NCBI GenBank assembly: GCA_012267415.1
Contig: JAAXGN010000015.1
Span: 1 to 64,000, forward strand
From: Candidatus Poribacteria bacterium
Lineage (GTDB): Bacteria; Poribacteria; WGA-4E; WGA-3G
Direction: 5' to 3'
DNA: 64,000 nucleotides
Shown: positions 31,903-46,668 of the stretch, piece by piece
How positions within the stretch are numbered: the stretch's first letter is position 1
Layout: each line of letters starts with the position of its first letter
The notes under the pieces: generated by a model
Told to the model about the DNA's origin: nothing
The model's input: the letters and a program-made list of their open reading frames with translations, nothing else
Database searches by the model: none
Position numbers and translations under genes: made by a program

Positions 31903-32481
31903 ATGAAAACGCTGAACTATACTCACAAATATCATCAAGTTATAATACCAAATAGATGTGTACTGTTTTCAATCCATTTTCTCATTCTACTGTCTTGTCT
32001 ATTTCTTGCTTCATGCAGTAATCCCTTAGAACCAGTAGATAGTGCAGAGGAAGAGAAAGTAAAAGCAGAATTGAATGACCGTTCTTTTCGTCAATTTGAT
32101 CCTGAGAAAGATACTGCTAAACGGAAGGCAGTCATTATTGATTTTTATGATGATACAGAAGGTAATATAATAAGAATGTGGGCGCAATATGCTGAAGGTG
32201 AATACGCATTGAAAGAATGGGAAATTTTCGCAAAAGACTATAAAGTTGAGAAAGGCGGATCAGAACATAGGTTATATTTTGTAGATCCCCATTCACATCA
32301 GAACATACCTTCAGAATGTGATGATTGTATTGAAACCAAAGGTGTCTCTATCTCTATACGAAATCTATACGATAAAGACAAAATACAATTCAAGATAAAT
32401 GACGAGAACGGTAGTCTACCCACTCCTTTTCCCGTGTTCAAATCTTGGACAAACTTCAATGAAGACGAATATTTTGATTGA
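31903..32481 (+). CDS. Lipoprotein of unknown function
   Basis: 192 residues with an N-terminal hydrophobic stretch and a lipobox (CLFLASCSN, cysteine at about residue 38). The mature part is acidic and contains two vicinal cysteines (ECDDCIE, about 142-146). No known domain recognised. It ends 19 nt before the leucine-rich-repeat lipoprotein, so the two probably form an operon. Confidence 0.75.
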   Translation: MKTLNYTHKYHQVIIPNRCVLFSIHFLILLSCLFLASCSNPLEPVDSAEEEKVKAELNDRSFRQFDPEKDTAKRKAVIIDFYDDTEGNIIRMWAQYAEGEYALKEWEIFAKDYKVEKGGSEHRLYFVDPHSHQNIPSECDDCIETKGVSISIRNLYDKDKIQFKINDENGSLPTPFPVFKSWTNFNEDEYFD

Positions 32482-32500
32482 AATATCACCAGACATTTCA

Positions 32501-34624
32501 ATGAAAACCCTTATTCCGCTATCAATCCTTTTCATCCTACTGATCGGTTGTTCACCACCCGAACCAGTGGAGTTTACAGATCCGAACTTAGCTGCTGCTG
32601 TTAGGGCAAGACTGAATCTTAGTCCACTCGATCCAATCAAGGAGAAAGATCTCAAGGAATTGGACTACTTACGTGTATATGATCAGACCGTTCGCAACTT
32701 GACAGGTTTAGAGACTGCATCAAATCTAAAAACTTTTGTATGTAAAAAGAGTTTCATTGCAGATATTTCACCATTGACTAAGTTAACTAAACTAACAACA
32801 CTTGAATTGGGTTACACTCGTATCACTGATATCAGTCCTGTCAAAACCTTAACAAAACTCACAACGCTTGAAATAGAGCACAGTAGAATCACTGATATCA
32901 GTCCCATCAATGCCTTAAAAGAACTTGAAAATTTGAATCTATACAGTAATTTGATTTCTGACATAACACCTCTTGCTGATTTAAAGCAACTGCGTTATAT
33001 CAATCTTGGCATGAATAGAATTCGCGATATTACCCCTCTCAGCGAATTATCCCAACTCAATAGGTTAGATCTGTATAATAATCAGATAAGTGACATAACG
33101 CCATTAACCAATTTAGAGAGTTTAACTGAACTTTACCTCAGAAACAATGAAATACACGATATTACCCCGCTTTCTGGATTGAGAGACCTTAAGACCTTAC
33201 ACATTGAACATAACCATATCAAAGACATGAGTCCGATTGGTGGATTACAGCACCTAAAGGATTTAAAATATGAAGATAATCTTATCATAGATAGGACTGC
33301 TGTAGATAAATATAGTTTCCTCCGTTCTCCTCGTCCTCCGAGAACAACGGAAGCAACAGAAGAAGTAAACAATAAAGAGGATGTTAAGACAACAAAGGCA
33401 GTCCATTCTCCATTGGTACCTGACCCTAACCTTGCAGCAGCTGTTCGCGAGGAGATTGGTATAAATTCCGATGAACCCATTTTGCCGGAAAAACTATCTG
33501 AGATATATACTCTCAACCTTGGGAAACAAGGTATAAAAGACTTAACAGGTTTAGAAAAAATGACAAGTCTGGTGTTCCTGATAATTGAGGATAATGAAAT
33601 TGAAGATATTTCACCCTTATCCAATCTGATAGAGTTGAGGTCCTTACAACTTGGTGGTAATAGAATCACTGATATTTCACCACTTAGTGCTTTGACAAAT
33701 CTAACCACATTAGAACTAAGATCCCAATTTAGCGATCCAGAAAACAACATAAAGGACTTGACACCCCTGAAGGATATGATACATTTACAAACGTTATCAA
33801 TTACTGGAGAAGAAATAGATGATATAAGTCCACTAAAAGAATTAAAAAAGTTAACATGGTTATCAATTAGAAATACACGAGTAAGTGATATTTCACCGTT
33901 AGCAGAAATGGTGCATCTCAGTCATCTATATCTCAGAAATTGTCAAATTCGTGATATCTCACCATTGGCAGACTTAAAACAACTTGATATACTATGGCTT
34001 TACGTTAATAATATCTCAGACGTTAAACCATTATCAGGACTGTTACATCTTAAAGATTTGGGACTTGAGGACAATGAAATAAGTGACATAACACCACTTG
34101 CCGGATTGATAAGGTTGACAGATTTAAGCATCGGTGTGAATAGAATCCGTGACCTTAAACAGACCGGGAATATCCTCTCTAAACTGAAGCGACTGACAGA
34201 TCTGACACTTAACGACAATGAAATCCAGGATATTACTCCCTTAGCTGAATTAAGAAACCTGACCATCTTAAGACTCATCAACAACCAGATTAGCAATATA
34301 GAACCACTGGCAAATTTGACTGATTTGCATTATTTGATGCTTACGAACAATAAAATCAATGATGTGTCTCCTCTTGCTGATTTAAAGAGATTGAGGCTGC
34401 TTAGACTTGGTCAGAATCATATCCAAGACATAACACCCCTTGCAGACTTGAAAGAGATGACATATCTTGAACTACATGAAAACCAGATAAGGGATTTCAG
34501 TGTTGTTGAAAGTTATCCACATATCAGAACTTTAAGCATTAAGGATAACCCAATTCAGGACATGACACCGATTACAAACCTCCGTACCCGTTTTCCTGAT
34601 TTACAGCTGGATAGTAAACGATAA
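32501..34624 (+). CDS. Leucine-rich-repeat lipoprotein
   Basis: 707 residues with a lipoprotein signal (LSILFILLIGCSPPE). Leucine-rich repeats of about 22 residues, close to the internalin/SDS22 pattern (ITDISPLSxLTxLTxLxLxxN), form two arrays. Each array is preceded by a near-identical cap: DPNLAAAVRARLNL near residue 26 and DPNLAAAVREEIGI near 307. An acidic Thr/Lys-rich linker (about 285-305) separates them. It is probably a surface-anchored binding protein. The ATG at 32501 is at the lipoprotein signal; the upstream in-frame extension overlaps the previous gene and is unlikely. Confidence 0.88.
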   Translation: MKTLIPLSILFILLIGCSPPEPVEFTDPNLAAAVRARLNLSPLDPIKEKDLKELDYLRVYDQTVRNLTGLETASNLKTFVCKKSFIADISPLTKLTKLTTLELGYTRITDISPVKTLTKLTTLEIEHSRITDISPINALKELENLNLYSNLISDITPLADLKQLRYINLGMNRIRDITPLSELSQLNRLDLYNNQISDITPLTNLESLTELYLRNNEIHDITPLSGLRDLKTLHIEHNHIKDMSPIGGLQHLKDLKYEDNLIIDRTAVDKYSFLRSPRPPRTTEATEEVNNKEDVKTTKAVHSPLVPDPNLAAAVREEIGINSDEPILPEKLSEIYTLNLGKQGIKDLTGLEKMTSLVFLIIEDNEIEDISPLSNLIELRSLQLGGNRITDISPLSALTNLTTLELRSQFSDPENNIKDLTPLKDMIHLQTLSITGEEIDDISPLKELKKLTWLSIRNTRVSDISPLAEMVHLSHLYLRNCQIRDISPLADLKQLDILWLYVNNISDVKPLSGLLHLKDLGLEDNEISDITPLAGLIRLTDLSIGVNRIRDLKQTGNILSKLKRLTDLTLNDNEIQDITPLAELRNLTILRLINNQISNIEPLANLTDLHYLMLTNNKINDVSPLADLKRLRLLRLGQNHIQDITPLADLKEMTYLELHENQIRDFSVVESYPHIRTLSIKDNPIQDMTPITNLRTRFPDLQLDSKR

Positions 34625-35722: not shown

Positions 35723-37060
35723 ATGTATTCACACCATCAAACCAAGAAAATTATCTCTCTACCTAAACTCCTGTTAACAGTCATCTTTCTATCTACGCTT
35801 CTTTCATATTCATTTCTGGCATTCAATTCAAATAGTCAGGAAGAGACCCCTTCACTGGCAGAGAAGGTCTTTGAAAAATATCAAACTTTTCTTCAACGAG
35901 AAGACATTAAAGCATTACTACCTGTAGTCTTGGTTGAGATCAAAAGACCTGAAAATCAGAGGTTTTTAACACCTGAAACAATAAATCTTGTCGTTGATAA
36001 TCCAGACATACTCAAAACTATTGCTCCTGACATAGGTGATGAATTTATCACGCTGCTAAAGGAAGATGAAGAGATACAAACGTTCCTGAGAGATTCTGAT
36101 GTTCAGTCTTTACTTCAGGACATTGATGCCATTGACGAACTTACAGAATTACTCAGACTTGCTGAGCTTTCTCTCGCTGCACGAGTTGTTGAAACACATG
36201 CTGCGCTGTTTGAAAGAGAGGATATCAAGGAACTTCTTCCGATAATCCTTGCTACACTGAGAAAACCAGATATTCAAGAACAAATCACGCCTGAACTCCT
36301 CAAATCGGTGGAAACTGATCCGGACACATTGAAAACAATCTTACCTAATATTGATGATAGATTCATTACGCTCTTGAAGGATGATATGGATGTAATGACA
36401 TTTTATAGCGATCCAAATCTTCAACTCCTACTTCAAGACCCTGAAGCAATTGATGAACTGGCAACTATTCTTAATATAAATTTAGTTCTTCCCGTTACAG
36501 TCAAGGTTTCACCGGCATCTATAGAGTCTCCAAGGAGAGGGGAACAACTCACTATTACTGTTGATATTGTTGATGGACAGGACGTACAGGGATATGAAGG
36601 TGTTCTAAGTTTTGATTCAACAGCACTCCGCTTTGTATCCTTAGAACATGGTACATACTTACAAGGTGAACTTCTAGCCGTACCAACTACTGAAGAGACA
36701 GGTATGGTCAGATTTGCACAGATATCTGTAGATACACCAGCAAGCACAGCAGATGGCACGCTTGTCACCATCATATTTGAAGTTCTTTCTGCCAAAGCAT
36801 CAGAACTTCTGTTGACTGACGTGATAATTTCACAGGCTGCAGGTGTTGAGTTACCAGTGATTATTGAAAACGCTGAAATAACTGAACCTCCAATTGGACC
36901 GTGGGACACAAATAGAGATGGGAATGTGAATATCTTAGACTTGACCTCTGTCGCGTCTCATATCGGTAATGACAACGCACCACCTGAAGCTGATGTTAAT
37001 GGGGACGGAACCGTAAATATCTTGGATCTGACCTTAGTAGCAGGTCATTTCGGTGAGTAA
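35723..37060 (+). CDS. Exported protein with duplicated helical module, cohesin-like domain and dockerin
   Basis: 445 residues with a signal peptide (LLLTVIFLSTLLSYSFLAFNS). Residues about 40-245 hold two related modules of about 95 residues (REDIKALLPVVL...FITLLKEDEE and REDIKELLPIIL...FITLLKDDMD). A cohesin-like beta-sandwich covers about 255-390 (VKVSPASIESPRRGEQLTI, FDSTALRFVS). The C-terminus is a two-repeat dockerin (DTNRDGNVNILDL and DVNGDGTVNILDL) with calcium-binding loops. Cohesin and dockerin in one chain could allow self-assembly or chain formation on the cell surface. AGGAGA precedes the ATG. Confidence 0.85.
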   Translation: MYSHHQTKKIISLPKLLLTVIFLSTLLSYSFLAFNSNSQEETPSLAEKVFEKYQTFLQREDIKALLPVVLVEIKRPENQRFLTPETINLVVDNPDILKTIAPDIGDEFITLLKEDEEIQTFLRDSDVQSLLQDIDAIDELTELLRLAELSLAARVVETHAALFEREDIKELLPIILATLRKPDIQEQITPELLKSVETDPDTLKTILPNIDDRFITLLKDDMDVMTFYSDPNLQLLLQDPEAIDELATILNINLVLPVTVKVSPASIESPRRGEQLTITVDIVDGQDVQGYEGVLSFDSTALRFVSLEHGTYLQGELLAVPTTEETGMVRFAQISVDTPASTADGTLVTIIFEVLSAKASELLLTDVIISQAAGVELPVIIENAEITEPPIGPWDTNRDGNVNILDLTSVASHIGNDNAPPEADVNGDGTVNILDLTLVAGHFGE

Positions 37061-39803: not shown

Positions 39804-40023
39804 ACAAACGCGTTTTCCTCACTCAACCCAGTTAGTTAGTCAATCCTACTCACGCTTAATAGAACTATTGCTTTCTATTAGAATATTGCTGTCCATACTG
39901 CTCTGCTTGTACATAAAAGGCAAGAAAACATTGCAATTCCACAATATTCATACCGATATGCAACCTTTTCTCTCACAATACGCGTCTTTATAATTAGATG
40001 TATATGTTTTTAAGAGGACTTAG

Positions 40024-42768
40024 ATGCATAATAACGATGTTGAATTAATCAATAGTATTTTATCTGGCGACGAAGCAGCCTTCACAGCATTAGTTATAAA
40101 ATACCACAAGTGGGTTCATGCGCTGGCATGGCGGAAAATAGGGGACTTCCATATTGCTGAGGAGATCACACAGGATATATTCCTACATGTCTACAAAAAG
40201 TTACCAACCCTAAAAAATCCGAATCAGTTTCCAGGTTGGTTGTATGTGATTGTCAATAGACAATGCATTGCTTGGCTTCGCAAGAAAAAACCGGTAATGC
40301 AATCGCTTGAAACCACTAATGAAGAAACATTAGAGGAAACTGCTTATGAATGTTATGTTGCAGAACAACTTCAAGAAAAGGCAATTGAACATCAGCGTGA
40401 AATCGTTCAAGATTTATTGGAGAAACTCCCAGAAAGTCAACGCACCGTTGTAATACTCCACTATCTCGGAGATATGACATGTCAAGAGATAAGCAAATAT
40501 TTAGGCGTGTCTCCTAACACCGTCAAAAGTAGACTAAGCCGCGCACGAAATCGCTTAAGAGAAGAAGAACCGCTGATTCGCGAAACACTCGGCAGTGTTC
40601 CAATTTCAAGAAACTTAATAGAAAACATCATCCAAGACATATCCGATGTTAATCCGAGTGCAGCTCCTATGGGTAAACCTTTGTTCCCGTTTGCTGCTTT
40701 TGGTTCAGCCATTGTTTTGACTATTCTACTGATTGGTGCAAGTAATAAATACCTGAGTAATCCTCAATTACCTTATAGTTTTGACGCACAATCAGAAACT
40801 GCAATTGAAATAGTTGAAGTTCCTGTTTTTCATAACAAACAATTAGAACCCACTATGCAAAATCGTGTAAAGACTAATGATACACCTGATCAGACCAGCA
40901 AGGGTGGTCTACATGAAGGAAAATCTACTATGCAAAACAAGCTTGGTCATGATTCAACAAAATGGAAATTACCTGAAGGTGCCAAAACGCGTCTTGGTAA
41001 AGGTTATATCTTTGATATGACATATTCACCAGATGGTGCACTGCTTGCAGCATCCACTACAATCGGTATATGGATTTATGATGCGCGCACAGGTGAAGAA
41101 CGCAACCTGTTAACAGAACACATGGAGGGTTCTTCTACAGTGGCATTCAGTCCCGATAATCAAATATTCGCAAGTGATGGCGAGGATAACACAATACTAC
41201 TGTGGGAAACACAAACCGGCCAACTTATAAGATCACTTAGTGGACACATTGACGGAGTAGGTTCAATTGCTTTCAGTCCAGACGGTCAAACTATCGTGAG
41301 TGGTAGTCACGATGCTACAATTCGTTTATGGGATGTGTCTACTGGTGAAGAACTTCTGACGTTTGCTGGTCATGCAGATGGGGTTTCAGATGTGATGTTT
41401 TCACCTGATGGTAAAACGATTGCAAGTCACGGGTATAGAGATGCTTTGATACATCTGTGGAATGCATCTACAGGTGAATTCCTAAGATCGTTATCGGGGC
41501 ACACAGCAGATGTTAATTCCATAGCCTATTCTCCTGACGGTCAGTTATTGGTATGCAGTAGCGAGGATGGAACAGTTCGGTTGTGGGAACCTGACACAGG
41601 ACATCTCAAGAATACTATAACAACAAAAATAGAATCCGACAAAGTAGGTCATGGTGTTAAATCCGTTCTGTTTCATCCAGATGGAAGAAAACTCGTGTGC
41701 AATAACTACGGGGATGATATGATTCAGTTCTGGGATGTAGATACAGGGGAACATCTTAAGACCATTAAGGGACCACCAGATACGACAGATCATATAACGT
41801 TTTCTCCCGATGGGAATACACTGGTATATACAGGTGATGATGGCAAAATTAGGTTTTGGGATTTAGCTAACAATACATCCATACGAACAGTGAACGGTTA
41901 CGCACAAATGTTTCGTGATATGACCTATTCACCAGATGGGAGCAAAATTGTTACGGTGACCTCCGGTCCGAGGATCTATTTCTGGGATACACATTCAAGT
42001 AGACTGACAAAAACCTATTACAACCCTGAAGGTGTCAGTATCAGTAGTGTCGCCTATTCACCTGATGGTGAAACACTTGCTTGTGCTGGTGGGCCAAATG
42101 ATTATAATACAGTCTTCCTTTTGGATACAAACACGTTTGAACACAAACGTGTTTTCACAGGACACAAGGCAGGTATTGAGTCTGTAGCCTTTAGTCATGA
42201 CGGAATGACACTTGCCGCCGGTGACAACAATGGTTGGATCTACTTATGGGATGTGAATACAGGTAAGACATTAAGAGAATTTGACTGGAACGGTGATATC
42301 ATCAGAAATTTAGCGTTTTCTCCTGATGGAAAAATGCTAATGAGCACAAGTGATTCAGGAACGTGTTTTTGGGATATCACTTCTGAAGAAACAATACAGG
42401 AACTCCGAGCTTATGAAGTCGTCGTCTCACCAGATTGGAAAACGTTCTTAGGTATTGGTGGTGATGAGAATATTGGATCCATCTGTTTTTGGAATTTTAG
42501 TAAGGATAAACCACAGAAATCAATCAGTTCTCTACCAAAAGCACACTATTTGGAATATTCTCCTAATGGACAGTCCTTTGTTAGCAAACATGCGGATGGA
42601 AAATTCCGTTTTTGGGATACGAAAACTGGAGATTTAATGCAAACTTATTCTGGACATATACAGGGAATTTGGTTCTTGTCGTATTCACCTGATGGTAACA
42701 CCCTCGCGACAGCTGGATGGGACAGCACAGTATTGCTATGGGATGTGCCTAAATATATTGAACATTGA
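40024..42768 (+). CDS. ECF sigma factor fused via a transmembrane helix to 14 WD40 repeats
   Basis: 914 residues. Residues about 10-90 are sigma region 2 (AEEITQDIFLHVYKKL, FPGWLYVIVNRQCIAWLRKKKP). Residues about 130-180 are region 4 with its helix-turn-helix (LPESQRTVVILHYLGDMTCQEI, SPNTVKSRLSRARNRL). One transmembrane helix follows at about 219-241 and a linker to about 312. The rest is WD40: I count 14 repeats (FSPDGQTIVSGSHDATIRLWD type), enough for two seven-bladed propellers. The topology predicts cytoplasmic sigma and outward propellers. AGAGGA precedes the ATG. It leads a three-gene WD40 cluster. No anti-sigma gene is adjacent. Confidence 0.88.
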   Translation: MHNNDVELINSILSGDEAAFTALVIKYHKWVHALAWRKIGDFHIAEEITQDIFLHVYKKLPTLKNPNQFPGWLYVIVNRQCIAWLRKKKPVMQSLETTNEETLEETAYECYVAEQLQEKAIEHQREIVQDLLEKLPESQRTVVILHYLGDMTCQEISKYLGVSPNTVKSRLSRARNRLREEEPLIRETLGSVPISRNLIENIIQDISDVNPSAAPMGKPLFPFAAFGSAIVLTILLIGASNKYLSNPQLPYSFDAQSETAIEIVEVPVFHNKQLEPTMQNRVKTNDTPDQTSKGGLHEGKSTMQNKLGHDSTKWKLPEGAKTRLGKGYIFDMTYSPDGALLAASTTIGIWIYDARTGEERNLLTEHMEGSSTVAFSPDNQIFASDGEDNTILLWETQTGQLIRSLSGHIDGVGSIAFSPDGQTIVSGSHDATIRLWDVSTGEELLTFAGHADGVSDVMFSPDGKTIASHGYRDALIHLWNASTGEFLRSLSGHTADVNSIAYSPDGQLLVCSSEDGTVRLWEPDTGHLKNTITTKIESDKVGHGVKSVLFHPDGRKLVCNNYGDDMIQFWDVDTGEHLKTIKGPPDTTDHITFSPDGNTLVYTGDDGKIRFWDLANNTSIRTVNGYAQMFRDMTYSPDGSKIVTVTSGPRIYFWDTHSSRLTKTYYNPEGVSISSVAYSPDGETLACAGGPNDYNTVFLLDTNTFEHKRVFTGHKAGIESVAFSHDGMTLAAGDNNGWIYLWDVNTGKTLREFDWNGDIIRNLAFSPDGKMLMSTSDSGTCFWDITSEETIQELRAYEVVVSPDWKTFLGIGGDENIGSICFWNFSKDKPQKSISSLPKAHYLEYSPNGQSFVSKHADGKFRFWDTKTGDLMQTYSGHIQGIWFLSYSPDGNTLATAGWDSTVLLWDVPKYIEH

Positions 42769-42917: not shown

Positions 42918-44894
42918 ATGAAAATATTGAACCTTATCCTGACTTTTTTACCGATAATCTCTACATACTATCTATTTGCGGCTATGCTTAATACCGCATT
43001 CTCACAAGAACATTTTCAATTAAGTCTACCCGCCGGTGCGAAATCTCGTATTGGAAAAGGTGAAATACATCAACTGAAATACTTTCCTAATAGCAAACGT
43101 ATAGCTGTCGCAACATCCATCGGTATTTGGGTCTATGATATCAAAACTGGAGACGCACTTGATCTTCTTACAGGTCATACAAGTCCCGTGAAGTCAATGG
43201 CATTTAGTCCTGATGGAGAAACCATCGTCACAGGAAGTGAAAACGGAACTATCATATTGTGGGAAACGAACTCAGGAAAACATAAAGCAACCTTAAAGGG
43301 GCACAAAGACCATGTCGAAACAGTCGTTTTTAGTCCTTCTGGAAAAATGCTTGCCAGCTGCAACGTAAGTAGTAAGGTTTTTATTTGGGATTTGACATCA
43401 GGAGAAGTAAAACACACCATCCAATCTGATGCTTATACCATCTTTGCAGTTGTATTCTCTCCAGATGAAAAAGTCCTCAAAACTATCGGTGACTGGGGCG
43501 ATAACGAATTCTATATTGAATATTGGGATGTACAAACAGGTGAAAGTATCAAAGATGTTCTATTAGACGATGAAGACTATACAGTTGCGTCACTTTCACC
43601 CGATGGAAAAACGTTAGCATGTGCAGGAGATTCACCACTCCAATTTTGGAACATAGAAACAACGGAACAACTTTCTATTGATACAGAGTCGGAGGGACAA
43701 TTTGATTATTTAGAGTTTTCAACCGATGGAAGTCATCTCGTTGCTGCAGACGCCTGGGACAATCTCAGTTTATGGCAAGTTAGTCCGATGCAACATCTGA
43801 AGAACTTGGCACATGGGGAAGATTATAATTCAATAGCTTATGCTCCTGATGGAAAGACAGTTGCCAGTGGAAATAATAAAGGTTCAGTGAAGATTTGGGA
43901 TGTTACCACAGGAGAGCTTACACAAACAATCTCAGGACATCCGTCTAAGCAGATGCACACCGCAGCTTTTTCTACCGATAGTTCAACTGTCACAATTGGA
44001 ACAAAGTCTGAGCTCCAAATATGGAATTGGCAATCGGGTGAACTTGATAAAACTATTCCTGAACCTCGTTGTGATGTCTATTCAGTTGCGTATTCTCAAG
44101 ATAAGAACTTTATTGCTACAGGTGGCAGTTCTAAGAAAGCGCGAATTTGGTATGCACACACAGGACGGTTCCTTGGAAGCTTTGTGGGGCACAAAGACAA
44201 TATCTATGCTGTTGACTTTTCTCCTGATGGGCGTTTGCTTGCTACCGGAGGAGGACAAAAAAGACCAAGACCCGAACTTAAAAACGGAAGTAATCGGGAC
44301 AATTCAGTCTGTCTCTGGGACATTCGTAAAGGTGAATTATATCTGATTGGTGAACGTCTGGCAGCCTTTACCGAACATACCGACTGGATCAATGCTGTTG
44401 CATTTTCACCTGATGGTAAAACGCTTGCAAGTGGTAGTCAAGACAAGACCATTCAACTATGGGATGTGAAGTCATTCAAACATCTAAGAACGTTAGCAGG
44501 ACATGAAGATGGTGTCAACGCAATCGCATTTTCACCTGATGGAAAAACGCTTGCGAGCGGAAGCACTGATGGAACTATTCTATTATGGGACTATAATATA
44601 GGTGAGTTGATTATTCCTCCAATTGCAGTAACAGGACAAGTAACCTCTTTGCGTTATTCACCTGATGGTAGTTTTCTTGCATGCAGCACCTATTCTGACC
44701 ATGTGGTTCACGTATTGGACGCTAAGACAGGTGAAAAACTGCACGCTTATACAGGACACACAGGTCGTATAAATGCAGTTGTGTTTTCTCCTGATGGTAA
44801 AACACTTGCAAGTGTCAGTAATGACTGTACTGTTCTGATGTGGGACATACAAAACATCATTCCAAAGATGAGGAATACTTACAATGGAAATTAA
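42918..44894 (+). CDS. Exported 14-repeat WD40 protein
   Basis: 658 residues with a signal peptide (LNLILTFLPIISTYYLFAAMLNTAFS). Fourteen WD40-type repeats can be counted. The head segment (LPAGAKSRIGKGEIHQLKYFPNSKRIAVATSIGIWVYD, in parts) matches those of the preceding sigma fusion and the following gene. No catalytic motif. It is probably a periplasmic or surface double propeller that binds a partner. AAGGAG precedes the ATG, and the stop overlaps the next gene's start by 11 nt. Confidence 0.88.
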   Translation: MKILNLILTFLPIISTYYLFAAMLNTAFSQEHFQLSLPAGAKSRIGKGEIHQLKYFPNSKRIAVATSIGIWVYDIKTGDALDLLTGHTSPVKSMAFSPDGETIVTGSENGTIILWETNSGKHKATLKGHKDHVETVVFSPSGKMLASCNVSSKVFIWDLTSGEVKHTIQSDAYTIFAVVFSPDEKVLKTIGDWGDNEFYIEYWDVQTGESIKDVLLDDEDYTVASLSPDGKTLACAGDSPLQFWNIETTEQLSIDTESEGQFDYLEFSTDGSHLVAADAWDNLSLWQVSPMQHLKNLAHGEDYNSIAYAPDGKTVASGNNKGSVKIWDVTTGELTQTISGHPSKQMHTAAFSTDSSTVTIGTKSELQIWNWQSGELDKTIPEPRCDVYSVAYSQDKNFIATGGSSKKARIWYAHTGRFLGSFVGHKDNIYAVDFSPDGRLLATGGGQKRPRPELKNGSNRDNSVCLWDIRKGELYLIGERLAAFTEHTDWINAVAFSPDGKTLASGSQDKTIQLWDVKSFKHLRTLAGHEDGVNAIAFSPDGKTLASGSTDGTILLWDYNIGELIIPPIAVTGQVTSLRYSPDGSFLACSTYSDHVVHVLDAKTGEKLHAYTGHTGRINAVVFSPDGKTLASVSNDCTVLMWDIQNIIPKMRNTYNGN

Positions 44895-46668
44895 AGAGCA
44901 TTCTCTAGAACAATATAAAGCACGCTATCTGCCAAACGGTGCAATTACCCGTTTCGGTAAAGGTTGGGTTTATGATTTTGATTATTCTCCAGACGGTACT
45001 GTGCTTGCAGTAGCGAGTACAATCGGTATATGGATTTATGATGTCAATACGGGTAAAGAGCTAAACCTACTCACTGGACATACAGGTTTTCTAAAATCTG
45101 TTGACTTTAGTCCTGATGGACAAACGCTTGCCAGTGGTAGTGATGATACTTCTATCCGACTATGGGATGTTGCTACTGGAGAATGTAAGTTAGTACTCAA
45201 TGACCATAAGGATGAAATTTATTCGGTTAAGTTTAGTCCTGATGGACAAACGCTTGCAAGTGGTTCACGCGATGAATTAATCCATTTTTGGGATGTGAAC
45301 ACTGGAAAACTCTTGCGAACAGTTGCCGGACATGCTGATGCTGTTACGAATGTAGTCTATGCGCCAAATGGAGAGTTGTTCGCAAGTTGTGGTAGAGAGG
45401 ACCGTAATGTCTCTTTAAGGAACGCTCAAACCGGGGAATTTCTTCAGATGCTAACTGGACACACAGATGGAGTTATACATATCGCATTTTCACCAGATAG
45501 TCAATTGTTAGCGAGTGGAAGTCGGGATAAGACCATTGTGTGGGATATTCAGACAGGTGAACAAATTGGAACCTACAAAGGAGATGTAGTTACATTTTCA
45601 CCAGATGGATTCACACTTGCTACAGGGAGTGAAGACGGATCAATACGTACCTGGAATGCCAAAGACGGTGCGCTGCATAACACGTTCAATACAACATGGG
45701 AAGACATCTATATTCTGAAATACTCTCCAGATGGAGACAGGTTGACAAGTTCAAATGGCGTTGAGATTCAATTTTGGGATATCCAGACAAAAAAACTTGT
45801 GAAAACTATGTCTGGCTTTTCTCAGGTCGTAGATTCTATTTCATTTTCACCTGATGGTGAGACATTAGCAAGTAAAGATGACATAATCAGATTTTGGGAT
45901 ATATCTACTGGCAAATTAAAACAGACACTTATACCCGAGAAGTCAGTCACAGAAATTGTTTATGCACCAGATGGCAATACATTTGCTTATGGGACTCATG
46001 AAAATACAATTCTAATCTGTGATGTTAACACACTTGAGGAGAGATTCACACTCAAAGGACATACGAATGGTATAGCTTCATTAGAATTCAGTTCTGATGG
46101 AGAAACTCTGGCAAGTGGAAGTTGGGATAACACTATTCGCTTGTGGAACACTAACACTGGAGAACACCTGAGAACATTAAGAAATGAATTTGAAGGTCAA
46201 CGGTCGATATCGTTTTCTGCAGATGGACAATTGCTGGTGTGTGTTGGTTCTAACAGAGAAATACATCTGATAGATGTCGCGACTGGAGAAATTCAAGAGT
46301 CTATTGACACGGAACCGCATCATATATATTTTGTCGTAATTTCTCCAGAGGGAAAAACACTTGCTACTGTAAATGAAACTGAAGTAATTCATTTATGGGA
46401 TGTTGCCACAGGTGAGGTGATACGGACAATTCAAAGAGATTGGGGATCAGAGAACTTAGTATTTTCAGCAGATAGTCAGACCCTTGCAAGCTGCGGATGG
46501 GATGTATACCTGTGGGATACTAATACTGGAAAACAAATAAAAACATTCAATGGCCATATTGATAGTGTCTTTGATTTCGCTTTTTCACCTGATGGACGAA
46601 CACTCGCAAGTTGTGGTCGTGATAGCACTGTTATACTTTGGGAGCTTCAGAACCTTGGTAACAATTGA
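44884..46668 (+). CDS. Cytoplasmic 14-repeat WD40 protein
   Basis: 594 residues without signal peptide or membrane helix. Fourteen WD40 repeats are visible (FSPDGQTLASGSDDTSIRLWD and others), with the shared head (LPNGAITRFGKGWVYDFDYSPDG). The start lies inside the end of the exported WD40 gene (11-nt overlap), implying translational coupling. It may be the cytoplasmic counterpart of the exported and sigma-linked propellers. Confidence 0.88.
   Translation: MEIKEHSLEQYKARYLPNGAITRFGKGWVYDFDYSPDGTVLAVASTIGIWIYDVNTGKELNLLTGHTGFLKSVDFSPDGQTLASGSDDTSIRLWDVATGECKLVLNDHKDEIYSVKFSPDGQTLASGSRDELIHFWDVNTGKLLRTVAGHADAVTNVVYAPNGELFASCGREDRNVSLRNAQTGEFLQMLTGHTDGVIHIAFSPDSQLLASGSRDKTIVWDIQTGEQIGTYKGDVVTFSPDGFTLATGSEDGSIRTWNAKDGALHNTFNTTWEDIYILKYSPDGDRLTSSNGVEIQFWDIQTKKLVKTMSGFSQVVDSISFSPDGETLASKDDIIRFWDISTGKLKQTLIPEKSVTEIVYAPDGNTFAYGTHENTILICDVNTLEERFTLKGHTNGIASLEFSSDGETLASGSWDNTIRLWNTNTGEHLRTLRNEFEGQRSISFSADGQLLVCVGSNREIHLIDVATGEIQESIDTEPHHIYFVVISPEGKTLATVNETEVIHLWDVATGEVIRTIQRDWGSENLVFSADSQTLASCGWDVYLWDTNTGKQIKTFNGHIDSVFDFAFSPDGRTLASCGRDSTVILWELQNLGNN

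Follow-up and report, generated by a model that had tools for sequence, protein, structure and literature searches.

An ECF sigma factor joined through a membrane helix to a double WD40 propeller in Poribacteria, a probable one-protein system controlling its own operon

We analysed a 64,000-nucleotide stretch of a Candidatus Poribacteria contig (the window) and found that it encodes a membrane-tethered ECF sigma factor fused in one chain to a double WD40 propeller, one of a large family in which a fixed sigma–linker–membrane–stalk module (the chassis) carries many different sensor domains. The architecture, the transmembrane (TM) helix, the family, the promoter, the covariation of promoter and sigma domain, and the adjacent look-alike genes were all computed; the outside location of the propeller, ligand sensing, a tethered off state, transcription of the operon, and the mode of activation are what we infer. 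Taken together, the protein is probably an anti-sigma-free, autoregulated, one-protein transmembrane ECF system that controls its own operon (Table 1).

In the mechanism we propose, the sigma2–sigma4 domain would lie in the cytoplasm, held by the conserved linker and a single TM helix, with the stalk and the double propeller on the far side of the membrane. When there is no signal, tether and linker would stop the sigma domain from working productively; once a ligand or partner reaches the outer propeller, the sigma domain would become available to core RNA polymerase, via either regulated intramembrane proteolysis or a conformational change at the membrane. The sigma domain would then transcribe its own operon (its own gene and two sigma-less WD40 genes) from 39955-39992. 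The ORF is one member of a Poribacteria-expanded family with one fixed chassis and many sensors, the rare ones of which appear to resemble the product of an adjacent gene.

Table 1. Features of the sigma–propeller locus, in window positions
Feature	Position	Strand	Basis
Predicted ECF-type promoter GATATGCAACCTTTT-N11-CGCGTCTTTATA, 31 bp before start codon	39955..39992	+	Matrix, whole-genome pattern, fit to promoter code
Membrane-tethered ECF sigma factor with double WD40 propeller, 914 aa	40024..42768	+	ORF and domain matches
ECF sigma domain, residues 1-186	40024..40581	+	Sigma70_r2, TIGR02937, structure sequence matches
Conserved cytoplasmic linker, residues 187-218	40582..40677	+	Conservation among relatives
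Transmembrane helix, residues 219-240	40678..40743	+	Hydropathy and aligned relatives
Conserved stalk directly beyond membrane, residues 244-271	40753..40836	+	Conservation among relatives
14 WD40 blades in two propellers, residues 320-908	40981..42747	+	Domain families, AF2, fold matches, motifs
Sigma-less WD40 protein, N-terminal hydrophobic signal-peptide-like segment; probable operon member	42918..44894	+	ORF, domain, signal look
Sigma-less WD40 protein, no evident signal peptide; probable operon member	44884..46668	+	ORF, domain

Architecture of the protein

The initial annotation, made from the letters alone, had described a single 914-residue ORF with sigma regions 2 and 4, a hydrophobic helix at about residues 219-241, and WD40 repeats running to the end as a double propeller, and every one of these elements was recovered. 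The ORF is intact, with exact ends in the open reading frame listing. A profile search placed Sigma70_r2 at 40090-40290 (52.9 bits), and TIGR02937 (sigma70-ECF) matched residues 19-181 at 96 bits against a cut-off of 42.9. Regions 2 and 4 fill residues 1-186, starting from residue 1, and regions 1.1 and 3 are absent, which is the composition of an ECF (group IV) sigma-70 factor. By sequence, the nearest solved structures to this domain are SigW and sigma-E.

WD40 families matched from about residue 327 up to the C terminus, and 14 SPDG-type blade motifs recur between residues 334 and 887 at a spacing of ∼42 aa, indicating two seven-blade propellers whose mutual boundary lies at approximately residue 613. 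In the AF2 model, strands across 320-907 were mostly confident, and double propellers were among its top fold matches. Linker and stalk were of low confidence in both AF2 models; the model of the sigma–linker–TM part came from a shallow alignment (pLDDT 46) and was left out of our conclusions. Conservation among relatives drops near residue 285. The linker, TM, and stalk gave no convincing Pfam match to a zinc finger or other known domain and only chance-level PDB matches, and none of 29 chassis sequences contained a Pfam zinc finger. The stalk may resemble the periplasmic region of RsgI, a likeness that we do not claim.

Mode of sigma control

Judging from the analogous IutY, ECF52, and RsgI, a tether-imposed off state followed by proteolytic release would be the likeliest route, as opposed to activity while tethered. 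In the latter case the sigma domain would work in the one-component manner of ToxR and CadC, and the operon would be transcribed at the membrane with no proteolysis. The linker is conserved nearly as well as the sigma domain itself, which would suit a part that keeps this domain positioned, and no cleavage site was identifiable, release being something we infer. However, in the membrane-fused or membrane-held sigma systems known in most detail, IutY and RsgI, control runs through intramembrane proteolysis (PMC8999054; PMC12203970). Sigma factors normally leave or move with the polymerase, and a tether would be expected to hinder this. We regard transcription at the membrane as a serious alternative but a distinctly less likely one than the mechanism we propose. 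The genome from which the window derives (hereafter, the source genome) encodes an M50 site-2 protease; as a control, such proteases were present in 14 of 14 other genomes, so this near-universal enzyme is uninformative about cleavage.

Membrane topology

Hydropathy along the protein peaks at residues 220-238. In an alignment of 123 tethered relatives, the 20-column windows from 219-238 to 221-240 contained zero charged and zero N/Q/H residues. These members had been picked by the hydropathy of the TM region, which builds in some apolar bias, but such picking would not give a total lack of polar residues at one fixed place. The 15 residues before the TM helix carry 2.8 K/R per protein versus 1.5 after it. 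The sigma domain can act only in the cytoplasm, and with a single TM helix the sensor is expected outside; together with this positive-inside bias and the signal-peptide look of neighboring look-alikes, the topology suggests that the propeller lies outside the cell.

WD40 propellers are frequently cytoplasmic, and the whole protein might instead be cytoplasmic or peripheral, with the apolar segment a buried helix and the propeller an intracellular platform for protein interaction, as suggested for ECF57. One of the downstream WD40 genes lacks an evident signal peptide, and sigma–WD40 relatives without a TM helix exist (L013:7100-9655 and L020). We nevertheless think an intracellular propeller improbable, given the polar-free columns, the fixed place of the TM helix in 29 members from the source genome, and the fact that sensors and look-alikes (lectin, M16, LRR) are of kinds that are typically exported and in many cases carry signal sequences. 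Some relatives that have the same promoter lack the TM helix (the WD40 protein at L013:7100-9655 and two Asp-box proteins in L005), which means that tethering is not essential to the family.

Promoter and its covariation with the sigma domain

The upstream regions of 44 family members in the source genome share a motif, TGCAMC..TTT, gap, CGCGTCACTATA. An unseeded dyad occurred in 13 of these 44 versus at most 7 in shuffles, and with a matrix trained on this genome, 30 of the 44 outscored even the best among 220 shuffles. For 13-14 of the 44 members the search yielded no motif; operons explain only some of these, as with the fusion genes in L012 and L024, which lack their own motif because it precedes the operon. 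In a held-out test on 96 members in other Poribacteria genomes, 90 upstreams scored above all 288 shuffles (median 29.8 versus a shuffle mean of -3.4). A strict pattern run over the whole genome gave 11 matches, 8 of them preceding ECF-fusion genes, versus 1 in a reversed control. Our search for a regulon relied on such patterns and on individual loci. Scans for sigma-70-type promoters and for terminators did no better than shuffles.

The predicted promoter of the window gene scored 31.3 with the matrix, whereas shuffled upstreams reached 14.4 at most, and it was also matched by the strict pattern. Its -35 core is GCAAC (39960-39964) and its -10 core CGTC (39983-39986). AAC/CGT, with autoregulation, is a hallmark of ECF promoters (PMC8103513), and GCAAC-N18-CGTC agrees with it; by this predicted promoter, the gene would behave as an autoregulated ECF sigma factor. 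Separately, two near-identical copies of the motif (TGCACCTTTTTGRGTAAAAAAATACGTCTTTA; C68:174790-174821 and C92:25158-25189, in L099 and L101) have no fusion gene downstream; they may belong to a repeat element or drive a small RNA.

Among all residue–base pairs, residue 169 with the -34 base ranked first (S-C, N-A, I/L/T-T) and residue 86 with a -10-box base second; residue 168 with -31 and residue 83 with a -10-box base also stood out, and residue 169 covaries with -33 as well as -34. Some other high-ranking pairs rest on few close relatives and were left out. The ranking preceded our reading of the sigma-E structure paper, according to which S172 and R171 of sigma-E contact -34 and -31 in the crystal (PMC6713349). 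These are the residues that align with 169 and 168, and these two covarying residues match base-contacting residues of the solved sigma-E/SigW structures. When the tree was built with the recognition helix left out, 6 of 6 changes of residue 86 fell on branches with a base change. The -33 base changed 5 times, each time on a branch that also changes residue 169, and did so in both directions. Common ancestry by itself does not easily explain this. The contact residues of the window protein and its promoter fit this code. These patterns suggest that every sigma recognizes the promoter of its own gene, and the sigma domains look functional and self-directed.

The chassis family in Poribacteria

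Sigma70_r2 has 65 match places in the source genome, many within long ORFs. We based the family on a profile limited to residues 186-284 (linker, TM, and stalk, no sigma), which no Pfam family covers. This profile found ∼31 full copies plus fragments in the source genome and matched 68 of 85 Poribacteria genomes, spread over 8 of 22 genera, these 8 all within a single order. Counts reach at least 59 matches per genome, and at least ∼1,580 when the table is summed over the genomes. Among the matches listed, the chassis lies in frames without stops. All relatives with named records are Poribacteria. Homologues keep the domain order, and their number in and beyond the source genome rules out an assembly error or pseudogene; single-contig genomes are among those with matches.

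C-terminal modules on the chassis include WD40, sortilin/Asp-box propellers, C-type lectin with CarboxypepD, LRR with GHL15, transglutaminase, redoxin, and M16. That the copies are mostly decaying products of a runaway duplication, with sigma function lost, might be read from the very high copy number and from the gene fragments and a bare-sigma copy in the source genome, but is scarcely credible given ≥97% conservation of core sigma positions in 123 members, contact residues and promoter bases that change together, and the stop-free frames of the matches listed.

Four propeller proteins carry the chassis linker and TM helix without a sigma domain (L018:6635-8371, L067:2642-3322, L013:9645-10565, and L069:981-4553) and are possibly decoys, co-sensors, or decay products. 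Untethered relatives within the same sigma clade include WD40, Asp-box, and tubulin/FtsZ fusions. A divergent sigma–propeller subclade (L020:1522-7173) has tandem copies and a different upstream motif (TTTTTTAAACCTTT) and faces an exported WD40-like gene. In the tubulin/FtsZ group (L014:18060-19283 and L025:2535-4349; in the source genome, C27:88059-89282 and C127:33125-34291), an ECF sigma domain is fused to a tubulin/FtsZ GTPase domain that retains the GGGTG[TA]G motif. Full-length orthologues of this fusion occur in most genomes of the same Poribacteria family, with another conserved upstream motif (TTTTTTTAAACC).

Operon and look-alike neighbors

The first downstream WD40 gene begins 149 bp after the sigma gene, and the second overlaps the first by 11 bp. 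Elsewhere, the neighbor of a rare sensor is often a sigma-less relative of that sensor, several having signal sequences. An M16 sensor and its sigma-less neighbor share 64% identity over 405 aa; CarboxypepD–lectin sensors have a look-alike neighbor in two loci; a 247-aa look-alike is 58% identical to its sensor over 224 aa; and an LRR sensor also has a sigma-less look-alike beside it. In six loci, L012-type sensors adjoin a 260-280-aa look-alike with no clear signal sequence, which by eye we take to be a putative thioredoxin-like protein. The same promoter motif stands before several look-alike operons, as well as upstream of a lipoprotein gene that adjoins a fusion gene; as a control, shuffled loci (717 kb) contained 0 motifs. 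We dropped this mirror-neighbor pattern for WD40 sensors, WD40 genes being too common for a local match to count, and for Asp-box sensors, which mostly have no local look-alike.

We suggest tentatively, at somewhat less than even chances, that Poribacteria mass-produce a one-protein sensing system: time and again the chassis would acquire its sensor by copying a neighboring and often exported protein, whose operon it would share. Its promoter code would diverge meanwhile (residues 83, 86, 168, and 169 versus -10-box, -31, and -34/-33 bases), giving several specificity classes per cell.

Two other genes in the window drew our attention: 35723-37060 encodes cohesin-like and dockerin type I domains within one chain, and 32399-34624 encodes a 741-aa protein of largely internalin-like leucine-rich repeats with, by eye, a lipoprotein-like N terminus.

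Discussion

The interpretation in the initial annotation, that the sigma domain is controlled without an anti-sigma partner, is partly supported: the membrane tether and the lack of any known anti-sigma domain in the chassis speak for it. Each of the three observations that it had named as fatal turned out otherwise, as a TM helix is present, the promoter-recognition residues are retained and covary with the promoter, and the fusion is no assembly error. Beyond its view was that the protein has dozens of paralogues, among which the sensors are interchangeable.

ECF57 of Planctomycetes (e.g., Singulisphaera acidiphila WP_015250107.1) combines an ECF sigma factor with a WD40-like C-terminal extension and has no separate anti-sigma partner described (PMC8999054), and WD40-bearing ECFs occur in detergent-soluble fractions of Tuwongella (PMC8567305). 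Our protein likewise has WD40-like repeats in its C-terminal extension, but the two conserved cysteines said to mark ECF57, a potential sigma2–sigma4 link, are not conserved in its family, where Cys81 is the only conserved cysteine (96% of 123 members, the next-best cysteine column, 153, reaching 32%). We made this comparison by description; planctomycete plasmid records yielded no ECF57, the matches being WD40 proteins of other architectures.

ECF52 (SCO4117, Streptomyces), described as exclusive to Actinobacteria, has a single chain that runs from sigma through a TM to an outer carbohydrate-binding domain, with autoregulation suggested and proteolytic release proposed (PMC5826349). The TM helix follows the sigma domain in both, but the zinc-finger anti-sigma domain that ECF52 has in between was not found in the 29 chassis sequences. 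In IutY (ECF243) of Pseudomonas putida, sigma is fused to a membrane-bound regulator, from which Prc and RseP free it (PMC8999054); IutY shares the one-chain arrangement with a membrane-bound part, but is a cell-surface siderophore-signaling protein with an anti-sigma-like extension and another sensor, described as single copy. SigI/RsgI of Clostridium thermocellum form eight to nine autoregulated paralogues with one TM, RseP cleavage, and swappable outer sensor domains related to exported enzymes under SigI/RsgI control (PMC4711584; PMC12203970). The Poribacteria family resembles them in its paralogue set, predicted autoregulation, one TM, and swappable sensors, the rare ones of which are akin to neighboring, often exported, proteins. 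It differs in joining an ECF sigma in one chain, where SigI/RsgI are two proteins and sigma-I is non-ECF, and in its far higher copy number per genome.

WD40-tailed ECFs (ECF57) and ECFs fused to membrane sensors (ECF52 and IutY) are thus already known. New to us are the use of one constant chassis for many sensors, the extent of this in Poribacteria, a promoter code that can be read, and operon partners that look like the sensors; we found no paper on the family in a literature search covering a minority of the subscription journals. To our knowledge, this would be the largest per-genome set of membrane-tethered sigma factors, and it belongs to an uncultured phylum.

If our reading is true, a single protein may accomplish what commonly requires two or three. 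It is one of ∼30 relatives in the source genome, each apparently tuned to its own operon. Because sensor, promoter, and target are linked in one gene, target promoters would be predictable from sequence, and the family holds a naturally occurring set of shifts in promoter specificity, which could help both to understand orthogonal sigma factors and to build them. The sigma–tubulin/FtsZ fusion merits separate study. For Poribacteria, the family suggests that new sensory pathways may arise quickly via capture of a neighboring gene.
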